A program made the translations under genes and the position numbers. Below the pieces are notes generated by a model. That model had not been told where the DNA came from, searched no databases, and saw only the letters and a program-made list of their open reading frames with translations. A stretch of DNA of 64,000 nt, taken from positions 186,001 to 250,000 of the forward strand of contig NZ_QTJU01000003.1 of NCBI RefSeq assembly GCF_003412455.1, written 5' to 3'. This stretch comes from Deminuibacter soli. GTDB taxonomy: Bacteria; Bacteroidota; Bacteroidia; Chitinophagales; Chitinophagaceae. Positions 11,383 through 31,747 of the stretch are shown here, in pieces (positions within the stretch are counted from its first letter, which is position 1; each line of letters begins with the position of its first letter).

Positions 11383-11385
11383 TTT

Positions 11386-11762
11386 TGCTACAGCCTCGTA
11401 AGCCGGATTTTGTTTCTAAACCATCATTTATCTAGCCCTTTTATTACTAAAAAGGTCTTGCTGCCTACCCTGGATTGCATTCCTGTTACCAGGAAACTCG
11501 AACGGGCCGCCCTCAGTCAATCCTATACATGGCATTACAGCATCCAAGGTTTACCCTTCCAACAGGTTACCCTGCCGGAACGTGAGCCCTTACCTCACAT
11601 TTTCACCCTTACCCGTTGCCGGGCGGTTATTTTCTGTGGCACTTGCTGTGCTCCCGCTTGCACGGAAGCCCCGGCTGTTCACCGGTAGATTGCCCTATGC
11701 TGTCCAGACTTTCCTCCTTTTTGCAGTCACCCGCAAAAAAGCGATGGTTCGGGTTTGTAGCA
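11386..11762 (-). ncRNA. rnpB: RNase P RNA, bacterial type A
   Basis: The RNA part of RNase P, which removes the 5' leader of tRNA precursors. Read on the minus strand it has the universal conserved blocks in the right order: AGGAGGAAAGTCTGGACAGC near the 5' end (about 11720-11702), a GGTAAGGGTGAAA block (about 11611-11600), the GGGTAGGCAGCAAG-like block near 11465, and AAATCCGGCTTACGAGG at the 3' end (about 11411-11396). The ends can pair as P1 (GCTAC near 11760 with GTAGC near 11390). Length about 375 nt is normal. It is transcribed from a TATCTTTG box (11766-11773) and stopped at 11361-11382. Confidence 0.96.
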
Positions 11763-26846: not shown

Positions 26847-27404
26847 ATGAATATCCGCACCGCATTGCTGGAAGACAAAGTACAAAACCACGCCAAGGCC
26901 CAGGCAGTGGCAGATTATGCTGTTTCTTCTGCAGCGCGGTTTAAACAATTGATGCGGTGCTTTCTTGACCAGGATTACCGGCTGGCACAGCGCGCCGCAT
27001 GGAGTGTGTCGTGGGCAGCGCGCAAGAAACCGGAAATGGTGCAGCCGCATGTGAAAGAACTGGTATCGCAATTAAGCAAAACCGGTGTGCATCCTGCCGT
27101 TATCCGCAACAGCGTGCGCGTATTGCAAACCATGAACATACCAGAACCGTTGCATGGTGAACTGATGCAAAGTTGTTTTACACTGATAGAAACACATGAA
27201 ACACCGGTGGCCATAAAAGCATTTGCACTAACGACATTGGGAAAGCTGGCGGCCATTTACCCGGATATTATTCCTGAATTGAAATTGCTTGCCGAAAGCC
27301 GCCTGCCGCACGAAACAGCAGCATTCCGGCAAAGGGCGCACAAGCTTTTTCAGGCATTGAGCAAGCTGCCTGCCCACATACAGGCGGCTAAGGCAATTAA
27401 ATAA
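26847..27404 (+). CDS. HEAT-like helical repeat protein
   Basis: 185 residues, not assigned to a named family. All-helical with HEAT-type pairs: RLAQRAAWSVSWAARKKPEMV, VIRNSVRVLQTMNIP, PVAIKAFALTTLGKLAAIYP. No signal peptide or membrane helix. It lies 10 bp after cutC and is probably co-transcribed with it. Its last 55 bp overlap, tail to tail, the end of the TPR membrane-protein gene on the other strand, so the two messages are antisense there. Probably a protein-binding scaffold; a DNA-repair HEAT protein of the AlkD type is possible but no matching motif was seen. Confidence 0.72.
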   Translation: MNIRTALLEDKVQNHAKAQAVADYAVSSAARFKQLMRCFLDQDYRLAQRAAWSVSWAARKKPEMVQPHVKELVSQLSKTGVHPAVIRNSVRVLQTMNIPEPLHGELMQSCFTLIETHETPVAIKAFALTTLGKLAAIYPDIIPELKLLAESRLPHETAAFRQRAHKLFQALSKLPAHIQAAKAIK

Positions 27405-28603
27405 ACACTGCGGCAAACCGTAGCCGCATCTGCTGAAATAAAACTTGAAGCAATTGTAATCAAACCCAATACCAGCAAGGCCTGCAGCATTACCTGCTTT
27501 TTACCGCCCCTGAATATTTTTACCGGGAAATGCATTACGTTGAATAAGATGGAAAACGATGCCAGGATAGCTGCATTCCAAAACCATTCCTCCCCATAAA
27601 ATATACCTACGCCACACATTGCCAGCGCAACGGCGAATACACAGGTTACTGAAAAGGCACTCCATTTTTCGCTGTTGTCTAATGCATATCGCCCATAAGG
27701 TGATACTAACAAATAAGCATTGGCCAGTGTATTGCCCAGCCAGGTGAATAATACCAGTACTATATAAACACCGATGATCACCTGCCCTATCATATCGCTC
27801 CTGGTGCCGGTATTGCTATCTCTCGAAAAAAAGCTCACCAGCAACCAGATACCGACAATAAAACCAATGCGCAATGCTTTTGACTGGCGGCTCATCCACA
27901 AATGATATTGCAGCAGCCAGCGGTACAAAGTAAGCTTGCACTTGAGCGCGGTTTTGTAACCGTTCTTGGCGTACTGGCTGTTTGGGTTGATGCGCAGCGC
28001 TTCCCTGAAATGTTCCATGGCCTTTTGCGGCTCGTTTTTTTCCAGGTATACCCATCCGTAATTCACATGCGTTTGCGCATCTTCGGGATCTATCTGCAGG
28101 GCACTCTGTATCGATTCCATGGCATCATCTTCCAGGTTCAGCCGTAGCAATGCTTTGGAGCGTGCATTCAGGCACGATACATCTTTGGCATTCTGCCGTA
28201 AACCCTGTTCGGCCGCTTCTACAGCCTGGCCATATTTTTTCTGTGTAATGTAAATATTGGCCTGCAGTGAAAAATAACCGGCATGGTGCGGATACAAGCT
28301 AATGGCCTGCTGCAGGTAATGCATGGACTTGTCCATCTTGTTTTTCTGGTACCAGGCAAACGCCAGCAGGTAATACAGGTAGTCGTCACCTGCATCAAGC
28401 CCCACGCATTGCTGAAACAGTGCGATGGCCTCATCTACCTGTTTGTTATCGAGCCTGCAATGCCCGATTATCTGCAATGCATCTACATCGTTGGGGTTGC
28501 CCTGCAGTACTGCCGATGCCTCTGCTTCTGCTTCTTTATACCGTTTCTGTTTCAGCAGCAAACGCGCTCTTTCTATATAATGATACTTATTCTGTTCGAT
28601 CAT
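27350..28603 (-). CDS. TPR protein with C-terminal multi-pass membrane domain
   Basis: 417 residues. Residues about 5-240 are tandem tetratricopeptide repeats (AEASAVLQGNPNDVDALQIIG; AIALFQQCVGLDAGDDYLYYLL; AMEHFREALRINPNSQYAKNGYKTAL). From about 255 there are five to six hydrophobic helices, e.g. RIGFIVGIWLLVSFF, IGVYIVLVLFTWLG, FAVALAMCGVGIFYG and VYLIALAACMWAG. The TPR part should be cytosolic and tethered. The ATG overlaps the stop of the AAA+ gene by 4 bp, so the two are translationally coupled and likely work together. Function unknown. Confidence 0.82.
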   Translation of the reverse strand: MIEQNKYHYIERARLLLKQKRYKEAEAEASAVLQGNPNDVDALQIIGHCRLDNKQVDEAIALFQQCVGLDAGDDYLYYLLAFAWYQKNKMDKSMHYLQQAISLYPHHAGYFSLQANIYITQKKYGQAVEAAEQGLRQNAKDVSCLNARSKALLRLNLEDDAMESIQSALQIDPEDAQTHVNYGWVYLEKNEPQKAMEHFREALRINPNSQYAKNGYKTALKCKLTLYRWLLQYHLWMSRQSKALRIGFIVGIWLLVSFFSRDSNTGTRSDMIGQVIIGVYIVLVLFTWLGNTLANAYLLVSPYGRYALDNSEKWSAFSVTCVFAVALAMCGVGIFYGEEWFWNAAILASFSILFNVMHFPVKIFRGGKKQVMLQALLVLGLITIASSFISADAATVCRSVYLIALAACMWAGSLLNA

Positions 28604-29925
28604 TTTTTGAGGTTAAGGTACCGCAGGATATCGTCGTACAAACCCGTTTCATTGGCATACAATGCGTAATTGCGGGCAGTGGTAAACCATTCACCGGTGG
28701 TAGGTTTGTGTTGTTTAACGGCTTTCAGCAGGTCTTTCTGCGTTACAGGCTGCAATACGCCTTTGGCCAGTGATTCTTCCAGTTTCTGCTCTATCGCTAT
28801 GTCTACCACAGCCTGCAGATCGGCACCTGAATAATTCGCGGTAAGCTTTGCAATTTGCGCAGTATCAATTGATTCTGCCGGTTTTTCTTTTAATATCGAT
28901 GCCAGTATTTCGCGGCGGCTTTCTTCATCGGGCGGCGCTACAAACAGTACCCGGTCAAAACGGCCCGGGCGACGAAACGCACTGTCCACGCTCCAGGGGG
29001 CATTGGTGGCTGCCAGTACCAGCACGCCATCGTTGCTGTCTTTTACCCCATCCAGCTCTGCCAGAAACTGGTTGATGATTTGCCGCATGGCGCTCTGGCG
29101 CATGTCTGTTCTGCTGGCGCCCAATGCATCTACTTCGTCAATAAACAGTACACAGGGTTTATTGCGGCGTGCCACCTGGAATATTTCGTGCAGGTTCTTT
29201 TCGCTGTTGCCAATCCACATATCCAGTATGTCGTGCAGACCAAGACTGATAAACTTAGCAGAAATTTCGCCTGCCGTTGCTTTGGCAATAAAGGTTTTAC
29301 CACAGCCCGGAGGGCCATACATCAGTATGCCGCCGCCTGTTTTTTTGCCAAAAGCTTTATACATCTCCGGGTTGCGGAGCGGGTGTATTATTTTGAGCGA
29401 AATCTCGTTTTTCAATTGCTTCATGCCGCCTACCTGGCTAAAGTTGAGTGAAGGCTTTTCCATGAAATACCTGTGCTCATTGGCCAGTTCCTGCAGCAAC
29501 GCTTCTGATTCCATGCCCATTTCCATGCCTGGTAAACGCAGGGCCTGGTCTATCTCTGCATCTTTAAAATCAGGCTGATCGTGCAGTAGCTGTTCGTACA
29601 ATTCACGCGCAGGCGTGAGTGAGTTTTCTTTCAGCAGGCAGCGGATAAACAGCAAACGGCTGTCGTTGTCCAGTGCATGCTGCTCCTGCAATTGTTCAAA
29701 CAGAATGATGGCCGGAGAGTATTTCTGCTGGCGGTAATAAACAGTTGCCAAACCGGTAAGCGCCTTTGTATTGTCATGCTGCAGTTGCAATACCTGCGCA
29801 AATTGTTCAGATGCCTCAGCCAGCTGATTTTCTTTCAGCAACAGGCCGGCCAGGTGCAGTCGCAACGGGATATTGTTGGGTGATATATGCACCGCCTCTT
29901 TTAACTGTTCAATAATTTCATTCAT
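28600..29925 (-). CDS. TPR-AAA+ ATPase (Cdc48/Vps4-like)
   Basis: 441 residues. Residues about 1-130 are TPR helices; residues about 160-400 a AAA+ module: VGGMKQLKNEI, Walker A GPPGCGKT (204-211), pore-loop MWIG (236-239), Walker B VLFIDE (259-264), sensor 1 AATN (305-308) and FRRPGRFDR (317-325) with the arginine finger(s), plus a C-terminal AAA lid. It looks like the classical AAA clade that threads or remodels proteins, not the clamp-loader or MoxR types. With no protease domain it may unfold proteins, or take membrane proteins apart, together with the coupled TPR membrane protein. It is the first gene of the operon. A tandem repeat array lies just upstream. Confidence 0.88.
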   Translation of the reverse strand: MNEIIEQLKEAVHISPNNIPLRLHLAGLLLKENQLAEASEQFAQVLQLQHDNTKALTGLATVYYRQQKYSPAIILFEQLQEQHALDNDSRLLFIRCLLKENSLTPARELYEQLLHDQPDFKDAEIDQALRLPGMEMGMESEALLQELANEHRYFMEKPSLNFSQVGGMKQLKNEISLKIIHPLRNPEMYKAFGKKTGGGILMYGPPGCGKTFIAKATAGEISAKFISLGLHDILDMWIGNSEKNLHEIFQVARRNKPCVLFIDEVDALGASRTDMRQSAMRQIINQFLAELDGVKDSNDGVLVLAATNAPWSVDSAFRRPGRFDRVLFVAPPDEESRREILASILKEKPAESIDTAQIAKLTANYSGADLQAVVDIAIEQKLEESLAKGVLQPVTQKDLLKAVKQHKPTTGEWFTTARNYALYANETGLYDDILRYLNLKK

Positions 29926-30514: not shown

Positions 30515-31747
30515 TTAATACAGCAAACGCAGCTTGATGGTATCTTTCAATTCTTTCATGAGTTCAATGGCCTGTTTGGATAATTTGCGATCTACATCAA
30601 GCACCACGTAGCCAATTGAATCGTTTGTTTTCAGGTACTGGCCAACAATGTTGATATGGTGGTTGGACAGCTGGGTGTTAATCGCACTTAATACACCGGG
30701 TACGTTGTTGTGGATGTGCAGAATACGGTGTGCACCATCTACCGGCGGCAAACCGATGGCAGGTACGGTATGTGAACCGTTGGTAATGCCTTTCTCGAGA
30801 TAGTTGAACAGTTTTGCGCTCACATCTTCCCCAATATTTTGTTGCGCTTCTTCGGTAGAGCCGCCAATGTGCGGGGTAAGAATTACGTTGGGCAACCCCT
30901 GTAATGGTGTTTCAAATTTATCGCCGCTTTTTTCAGGCTCCCATGGAAACACATCAATGGCTGCGCCGCTCAGGTCACCATCTTTCAATGCTTTGGCCAG
31001 GGCTGGCAGTTCTATCACTTCTCCCCTTGCGTAGTTAATGAGTATGCTGCCTTTCTTGAAATATTTGAGATTGGTTTTGTTGATCAGGTTTTTAGTCTGC
31101 GCAGTTTCCGGCACGTGCAGTGACACAATATCAGCCTGTGATACCAGCTCTTTCAGGCTTTTGCAGGATGAAGCATTACCCAGCGGCAGTTTGGTTTCCA
31201 CATCGTAAAACAGCACTTTCATGCCCAGCGCTTCGGCCAGTACGCTTACCTGTGAGCCGATGTTGCCATAACCTACCAATCCCAGTGTTTTGCCACGTAC
31301 TTCAAAACTGCCTTTGGCATCTTTCAGCCATATGCCTTCGTGTGCGGCTTTGTTTTTATCGGCAATGCGGCGGATGAGCATAATAGATAAACCAATCACC
31401 AGTTCAGCCACGCTGCGGGTATTGCTGTAAGGCGCATTAAATACCACCACACCCTGTTTGGTGGCAGCTTTCAGGTTAACCTGGTTTACGCCGATACAGA
31501 AACAGCCAATGGCCTGTAGCTTTTTGGCGGCGTTCAGTACTTTTTCGGTGATCTGTGTTTTGGAACGAATGCCAAGCAGGTGTACGTCTTTAATTTCTTT
31601 GATCAGCTCGTCTTCGCTGAGGGCGCCTGACAACTTTTTTACATTGGTGTAACCGTTCTGTTTGAATAACTGGACTGCTTTGTCGCTGATGTTTTCCAGG
31701 AAGAGGATATTGATTTTCTCTTTCGGATAACTGGTTGCTGGAATCAT
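30515..31747 (-). CDS. serA: D-3-phosphoglycerate dehydrogenase
   Basis: 410 residues, the E. coli-like length. Catalyses the first step of serine synthesis, 3-phosphoglycerate to 3-phosphohydroxypyruvate with NAD+. Seen: substrate domain (GIRSKTQITEKVL), NAD-binding GLVGYGNIGSQVSVLAEALG, the catalytic-region INYARGEVIE and ILTPHIGGSTEEAQ with the active-site His, and a C-terminal ACT domain (about 335-410, VPGVLSAINTQLSNHHINI) where serine probably gives feedback inhibition. It has its own terminator and lies downstream of the L31 terminator, so it is a single-gene unit. Confidence 0.95.
   Translation of the reverse strand: MIPATSYPKEKINILFLENISDKAVQLFKQNGYTNVKKLSGALSEDELIKEIKDVHLLGIRSKTQITEKVLNAAKKLQAIGCFCIGVNQVNLKAATKQGVVVFNAPYSNTRSVAELVIGLSIMLIRRIADKNKAAHEGIWLKDAKGSFEVRGKTLGLVGYGNIGSQVSVLAEALGMKVLFYDVETKLPLGNASSCKSLKELVSQADIVSLHVPETAQTKNLINKTNLKYFKKGSILINYARGEVIELPALAKALKDGDLSGAAIDVFPWEPEKSGDKFETPLQGLPNVILTPHIGGSTEEAQQNIGEDVSAKLFNYLEKGITNGSHTVPAIGLPPVDGAHRILHIHNNVPGVLSAINTQLSNHHINIVGQYLKTNDSIGYVVLDVDRKLSKQAIELMKELKDTIKLRLLY

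Follow-up and report, generated by a model that had tools for sequence, protein, structure and literature searches.

Within a 64,000-nucleotide stretch of the Deminuibacter soli genome (contig NZ_QTJU01000003.1, positions 186,001 to 250,000; hereafter the window), two genes lie head to tail on the minus strand. The first encodes an ATPase with tetratricopeptide repeats (TPRs) and a classical AAA domain, and the second, here called the partner, a TPR protein with six predicted membrane helices. Co-inheritance and linkage of the two genes are near-obligate in two phyla, Bacteroidota and Planctomycetota. The pair may constitute a membrane-docked AAA module for remodelling or extraction in which the partner is the receptor of the ATPase, a reading to which a probability of about 0.6 is assigned. 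A first-pass annotation of this DNA, made from its letters alone, had placed both genes, the overlap of stop and start, and the four AAA motifs correctly (Table 1), without stating the strand.

Among 59 related genomes, including that of the window (36 of the same family and 23 of the same order), an ATPase orthologue is present in ten (7/36 and 3/23, respectively), and the partner lies directly downstream in all eight carriers whose contig continues. In G045 two contigs each hold part of the ATPase, whose end adjoins the partner; in G036 the contig ends and a strong partner was not found. Among 296 sampled Bacteroidota genomes (ATPase profile at E<=1e-75) the partner profile gives seven matches at E<=5.2e-90, the next being at 6.5e-30, and ATPase and partner are found in the same seven genomes, with no partner above threshold in the 289 non-carriers. 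The two are neighbours in six of the seven. In the remaining genome, G284, both are kept about 3.2 Mb apart, by position numbers, on one 3.95-Mb contig, with no TPR-membrane open reading frame (ORF) beside the ATPase; a gene fusion considered for this genome was rejected, the long open frame being read-through across an antiporter-like gene.

The same association is seen in 149 Planctomycetota genomes. Here 29 carry the ATPase at E<=1e-110, a split set post hoc at the gap between 4.8e-114 and 4.9e-87 (12 more genomes hold a weaker group only), and in 28 of these a strong partner (E<=1e-38) lies no more than 2 kb away, on the same strand of the same contig. In the 29th, G351, the ORFs upstream of the ATPase that resemble a TPR-membrane partner score lower (84-134 bits), and none of the 120 genomes without the ATPase has a partner above threshold. 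Fisher exact p values are 2.7e-14 for Bacteroidota and 1.9e-29 for Planctomycetota, values that overstate the strength of the association as the genomes are not independent. Among FtsH-like control loci none of 20 has a TPR neighbour, but the flanks of these are shorter (352-930 bp); the three control loci checked, as well as five FtsH rows of the tree described below, all exceed the FtsH_fam cut-off. Homologues of the two genes are adjacent in other genomes, one of the two points on which the first-pass annotation had let its proposal depend. The exact 4-bp overlap, also suggested as a conserved trait, is not one: a spacing of -4 occurs in only 9 of 33 full-length pairs, the intergenic gap ranging from -4 to +28 nt in 29 of them. 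Because the distribution in Bacteroidota is patchy, the role of the pair is not generally essential there.

Beyond these two samples, species genomes of GTDB were scanned and the best 80 loci among the matches listed were taken. With ten loci from the related genomes and five of six from another set (the unlinked G284 being excluded), 95 loci were classified: 33 have a full-length partner, two a partner cut by a contig end, 40 another linked TPR protein with predicted membrane helices, one a TPR protein only, and 15 no partner, the last four lying at contig ends. Linked partners occur, among the matches listed, in loci labelled Bacteroidota, Fibrobacterota, Planctomycetota, Verrucomicrobiota, Cyanobacteriota, Actinomycetota, Bacillota, Pseudomonadota, and Myxococcota. 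These phylum names come from the records themselves, which in many cases are metagenome bins, and Fibrobacterota, Cyanobacteriota, and Myxococcota are represented by one locus each; the Fibrobacter row sits among Bacteroidota in the tree and so may reflect a binning error or transfer. The set is partly redundant (L009 and L066 look like one contig, and L116 is the other part of that ATPase). Some of the 15 partnerless loci may be artefacts of frame or start, as other limits gave TPR-membrane ORFs near L058, L061, and L081. The archaeal relatives have a TPR-AAA protein and no adjacent partner in three of three loci. One of them, L110, has a TPR ORF without a predicted membrane helix 655 bp upstream, and the archaeal neighbours scanned are a PrsW protease, a tRNA synthetase, or match no family.

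The ATPase matches PF00004 (AAA, 140.7 bits) and PF17862 (AAA_lid_3, 31.4 bits), both above cut-off, and TPR_19. Its AlphaFold2 model (mean predicted local distance difference test score, pLDDT, 82.0; predicted template modelling score, pTM, 0.56) comprises a TPR domain, a low-confidence linker at residues 131-151 (pLDDT < 50) and an AAA fold. Walker A and B, the sensor 1 asparagine, arginine fingers and AAA_lid_3, the marks of the classical AAA clade, are all present, and N308 is invariant across 35 aligned orthologues together with G204-T211, D263-E264, and R319-R325. A hydropathy scan gives no hydrophobic segment. Pfam searches give no M41 or other peptidase domain and, at E<=0.001, no MIT domain; Vps4_C (PF09336) is likewise not listed for the window ATPase at E<=0.001, reaching E 0.05 in one relative, L096.

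Following the AAA part, the ATPase carries a C-terminal signature approximating P-S/T-x(3)-W-F/L-x(3)-R/K-N-x(3)-Y/F-A-N-x(2)-G-x-Y-D, with a conservation of 0.75 against 0.79 for the large AAA domain (35 rows). The corresponding regular expression matches 81 of 92 ATPase rows and does so across bacterial phyla. The 11 misses are the three archaeal rows, from which the signature is absent, one cut row, one apparently misframed row, and six variants. No PDB match to it was found below E 0.01. The signature is a candidate dock or inter-subunit element. A second, weaker AAA group is seen in planctomycetes G351, G356, G358, G368, and others (E 1e-76 to 1e-87); in 18 of 19 rows its match goes no further than model position 412-414, so that it mostly lacks the C-terminal signature and represents a neighbouring family.

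In a tree of AAA cores (72 rows, 13 duplicates having been removed beforehand) the 42 chosen bacterial ATPase rows form one clade (100/94), whose sisters are nine archaeal AAA domains from three genomes (100/96). Vps4, represented by two eukaryotic rows only, joins this combined group of bacterial family and archaeal sisters with weak support (93/89); other archaeal double-AAA proteins branch apart, as do Cdc48 and FtsH. A topology constrained to unite the family with Vps4 without the archaeal rows is not rejected (approximately unbiased test, p-AU 0.124). Two archaeal double-AAA proteins, L137 and L139 (genome G346), have both AAA domains clustering with the archaeal sisters of the family and not with Cdc48. 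Scores against NCBIfam models all stay under the cut-offs: 185.9 bits for CdvC (cut-off 650), 209.4 for the Cdc48 model TIGR01243 (802.65), the ATPase having a single AAA domain, and 199.8 for FtsH_fam (600), against which the FtsH of the host genome itself scores 795.8. No listed NCBIfam model is over cut-off for the ATPase or the partner. By the tests made, sequence comparison places the ATPase in a separate family, sister to archaeal AAA proteins, that does not appear to be Vps4, Cdc48, or FtsH. The earlier label of a "Vps4/Cdc48-type" protein is therefore right as to a classical AAA ATPase and not supported as to membership, given the separate clade, the lack of any MIT or second AAA domain found, and the NCBIfam cut-offs not reached.

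The structure of the core does not settle this further. The modelled AAA part can be superposed on Cdc48/p97 with Z 28.0 (root mean square deviation, rmsd, 2.7 over 277 residues), on archaeal Vps4 with Z 27.3 (rmsd 2.7, 263 residues) and on spastin with Z 27.2 (rmsd 2.4, 263 residues), so that the modelled core cannot discriminate among the three, tied at Z 27-28. In a sequence search of the PDB the AAA core is closest to Cdc48, its D2 domain ahead of D1 (189 versus 161 bits, plant CDC48).

The partner model, built from 39 aligned homologues, has a mean pLDDT of 93.5 and shows about seven TPRs followed by the membrane domain. TPRs with five to six membrane helices had been expected; the model gives six and a simple hydropathy scan five. 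Within the six-helix group conservation is highest in TPR6 (residues 172-205), a candidate docking face, and lowest in helices 4-6 (39 rows). Lysine and arginine are enriched ahead of helix 1 and in the loops that join helices 2 to 3 and 4 to 5. Under the positive-inside rule, K/R-rich loops lie on the cytosolic side, and the distribution thus favours cytosolic termini and would put the partner TPRs in the cytosol. The six-helix domain occurs, among the matches listed, in loci labelled as five phyla. Among 35 members, neither Pfam nor NCBIfam gives a convincing match to it (best E 0.003 and 0.0065, in a single member each), and in the PDB no sequence matches it below E 0.09. Comparing the structure of the whole partner returned TPR matches and barely probed the membrane part.

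Partners differ mainly after the TPRs. Of 12 linked partners of a reduced kind, nine were compared (all but L052, L053, and L107), from Pseudomonadota, Bacillota, and one planctomycete; these are 285-312 aa long, with the same TPR length and one or two membrane helices. Their profile aligns with that of the six-helix partners over 294 columns (E 4.8e-55), and their membrane part alone aligns with helices 1-2 (E 4.2e-9). As TPRs and helices 1-2 are kept, the constant part is a TPR dock with an anchor; by sequence, the constant element of the partners is a TPR solenoid of about 210 residues and then a membrane segment. Actinomycetota partners have several helices after the TPRs.

A small membrane gene stands in the same gene string as the reduced partner in six of the nine loci (Table 1), and its product of about 137-192 aa is predicted to have three or four helices; none was seen in reduced loci L087, L089, and L102. 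The three Bacillota proteins are mutually related (31-32% identity) and the planctomycete one resembles them marginally (E 0.0023), with no homology detected between Bacillota and Pseudomonadota proteins or between any of the small proteins and helices 3-6 of the six-helix domain. The membrane unit may thus be divided between two genes, with the small protein perhaps supplying missing helices, and the case that a simple anchor suffices is weakened. Tandem or extra TPR-membrane partner copies stand beside a single ATPase in L036, L054, L057, and L077 and in G427, G429, G440, and G471, one copy often being more divergent, which suggests partner diversification or hetero-oligomers.

From these features we infer a physical complex in which the ATPase, probably a hexamer, would grip polypeptide with its W-I-G pore loops and pull it through the central pore, by analogy with Vps4 and Cdc48. 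The partner would be an inner-membrane receptor, with a cytosolic TPR solenoid set on its membrane domain, that recruits the ATPase through the TPRs of the latter, its C-terminal signature, or both, and so may hold it near membrane-bound clients or near oligomers of the partner itself. As neither protein has a protease domain that could be found (nor a nuclease domain, both as first proposed), the likely outcome would be extraction or disassembly, not degradation. The role of the pair may be in quality control or membrane remodelling. What speaks for such a membrane-docked module is the domain architecture of both proteins, the AAA motifs invariant in 35 orthologues, the Cdc48/Vps4/spastin-like fold, and the co-occurrence of the genes: no genome in either phylum sample has the partner above threshold without the ATPase, and both genes are kept in G284 despite their separation.

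Several points weigh against this reading. To our knowledge no interaction, ATPase activity, or phenotype has been reported for the pair. Of the 91 loci with room for a partner, 15 have none by the criteria used, all three archaeal loci included. No homology was detected between the actinobacterial membrane region (15 of 26 partners) and the six-helix domain, and the small membrane protein joins the pair as a third gene in six of nine reduced loci, which there is not strictly a two-gene system. Confidence in the ATPase model is only moderate, and Pfam did not detect the N-terminal TPR in three of ten ATPases scanned (L087, L089, and L098), so that docking of TPR on TPR cannot be universal. A more far-reaching version can be put forward only tentatively and is doubtful as it stands: a widespread membrane-extraction machine, made of a TPR-AAA unfoldase and an obligate, dedicated membrane receptor, present as a unit in about nine phyla with the membrane unit sometimes split, and working without a protease or a filament of the endosomal sorting complex required for transport (ESCRT-III). 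It would be a functional parallel, from different parts, of Msp1 or of p97 with its membrane recruiters.

Other explanations can be set beside that of a receptor and its motor. The pair might serve a single envelope enzyme or complex as its dedicated assembly chaperone or activator, with the partner TPRs as the scaffold for that client. Single-client bacterial AAA chaperones do exist, as in the reported activation of MurG by SpoVK (PMC10659427), and the patchy spread (7/36 of the family, 7/296 Bacteroidota) fits a specialised, dispensable role, but no obvious client gene recurs with the pair, which leaves this explanation unlikely. When all ORFs of 94 loci were clustered, the pair, antisense ORFs of the ATPase, and ABC (ATP-binding cassette)-transporter-like ORFs were recovered, the rest reaching 3-5 loci. 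The transporter-like cluster, the largest other one, covers nine of the 94 loci, on both strands, 0.2-4.2 kb away and in no constant position. Less probable again is that the six-helix domain is itself a channel for retrotranslocation or transport, driven by the AAA ring. The domain is confidently predicted and shared among the five phylum labels, and the small genes with three or four helices, added in six of nine loci with a one- or two-helix partner as if about five or six were needed, make a channel slightly more likely than it would otherwise be. Yet the membrane part is the least conserved region of the partner, and the small proteins were not seen in three of the reduced loci and lack detectable homology to helices 3-6.

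Very improbable is a bacterial Vps4 that disassembles filaments of PspA/Vipp1, members of the ESCRT-III superfamily. The fold is Vps4-like, Vps4 stands nearest, if weakly, to the family and its archaeal sisters in the tree, and such genes are called VPS4-like in the passage that mentions them in PMC11237479; PspA/IM30 (PF04012), however, is over cut-off in three of the 59 related genomes and at E<=0.001 in seven, none of which is among the ten ATPase carriers, and the ATPase has no MIT domain. PspA/Vipp1 was accordingly rejected as substrate in this host, as neither the genome of the window (G000) nor the ten carriers give a PF04012 match, Snf7 (PF03357) not having been searched. An anti-phage defence module related to IetAS is the least credible of all, because the match to the IetA/IteA models (116.4 bits for NCBIfam NF042959, cut-off 510; 122 bits for PADLOC) extends only over the AAA part (residues 178-380 and 178-385), a protease partner is lacking, and the neighbours scanned in the window are housekeeping genes, so that identity with IetA was rejected.

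Vps4 has an N-terminal helical domain, a flexible linker, and a C-terminal helix, as does the ATPase here, and in the Vps4/ESCRT-III (CdvC/CdvB) system, too, a single classical AAA domain would act close to the membrane. In contrast, the ATPase has TPRs in place of MIT and RPGRFDR where the finger region of Vps4 reads RRRFEKR, and the partner is a polytopic TPR membrane protein in a genome without PspA/IM30. Resemblance to Cdc48/p97 lies in the MW[IVF]G pore loop, the RPGR finger, and the closest PDB core by sequence; the ATPase differs in having one AAA domain, no N-domain that was found, and a clade of its own. FtsH, with which Msp1 can be grouped as a membrane AAA motor, likewise places an AAA motor at the membrane, but in the pair it is a second protein that bears the anchor and TPR dock, and the Pfam search gave no M41 protease domain.

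The first-pass annotation had put the system forward as the best candidate in the window for an undescribed one. The pairing is already in print, in at least one sentence of Ravi et al. 2024 (mSystems, PMC11237479) on a bacterial gene pair of a VPS4-like AAA and a TPR/six-transmembrane protein (example ACB74714.1), which, matched by description, is very probably the pair of the window: the layout, an AAA gene adjoining a TPR and six-transmembrane gene, is the same. In that passage action close to the membrane is inferred and the ATPase is treated as a transfer of archaeal VPS4, whereas the tree presented here gives a separate family with archaeal AAA sisters. Compared with that passage, the co-occurrence counts, the separate ATPase family, the reduced-membrane variants, and the C-terminal signature are new. 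No other description of the pair was recognised in the open-licence PMC literature, and no function was found for it there. A 2024 ESCRT census (PMC11188069), in its abstract, reports ESCRT components as identifiable in archaea and not in bacteria.

The window neighbours scanned with Pfam and NCBIfam are housekeeping genes. On the plus strand, a 185-aa ORF at 26847-27404 that weakly matches the DVU0298 family runs towards the partner gene and shares 55 bp with its 3' end. Upstream of the pair lies a phosphoglycerate dehydrogenase gene (30515-31747, minus strand), as it does in L003, L004, L005, and L033, on the same strand at 10-175 bp. Apart from this gene, upstream in five close relatives, none is constant in position beside the six-helix pair in the flanks examined. 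For Streptomyces relatives, longest-ORF calling is unreliable for gene context. A bacterial class A RNase P RNA lies at 11384-11760 (minus strand).

Table 1. Positions of the gene pair and its parts in the window, and of small membrane genes in other loci.
Feature	Position	Strand	Evidence
ATPase gene (TPR and classical AAA, 441 aa)	28600..29925	-	ORF, Pfam, 35 aligned orthologues, AlphaFold2 model
ATPase N-terminal TPR domain, residues 2-129	29539..29922	-	TPR_19; model helices
Walker A GPPGCGKT, residues 204-211	29293..29316	-	Invariant in 35 rows
Pore loop W-I-G, residues 237-239	29209..29217	-	W237 and G239 invariant in 8 rows, G239 in 35
Walker B VLFIDE, residues 259-264	29134..29151	-	D263, E264 invariant in 35 rows
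Arginine-finger region FRRPGRFDR, residues 317-325	28951..28977	-	R319-R325 invariant in 35 rows
C-terminal signature (candidate dock), residues 408-437, PTTGEWFTTARNYALYANETGLYDDILRYL	28615..28704	-	C-termini of 92 rows; regular expression
ATPase stop/partner start overlap, 4 bp	28600..28603	-	ORF coordinates; contained in both genes
Partner gene (TPR and six-helix membrane protein, 417 aa)	27350..28603	-	ORF, Pfam TPR families, model
Partner TPR solenoid, residues 2-238	27890..28600	-	Pfam TPR families, model helices
Partner TPR6, residues 172-205	27989..28090	-	Per-segment conservation over 39 rows
Partner six-helix membrane domain, residues 242-416	27356..27880	-	Model; no named family found
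Small membrane genes beside reduced partners	L086 3011-3589; L088 2521-2931; L096 3188-3634; L097 3263-3712; L098 6089-6505; L103 3339-3794		

Among bacterial AAA machines that act on membrane proteins, FtsH is the best known. If the pair is indeed a motor and its receptor, it would represent a general and almost unstudied way to extract or pull apart membrane-bound proteins, by means of a protease-less AAA motor served by a dedicated TPR receptor; the two genes stay together in Bacteroidota and Planctomycetota and are found side by side or closely linked in Verrucomicrobiota, Actinomycetota, and others. Because the ATPase has close relatives in archaea, the pair would also bear on the origin of Vps4-like remodelling. 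It is plausible to regard it as a variation on AAA remodelling that is well conserved and almost unstudied.

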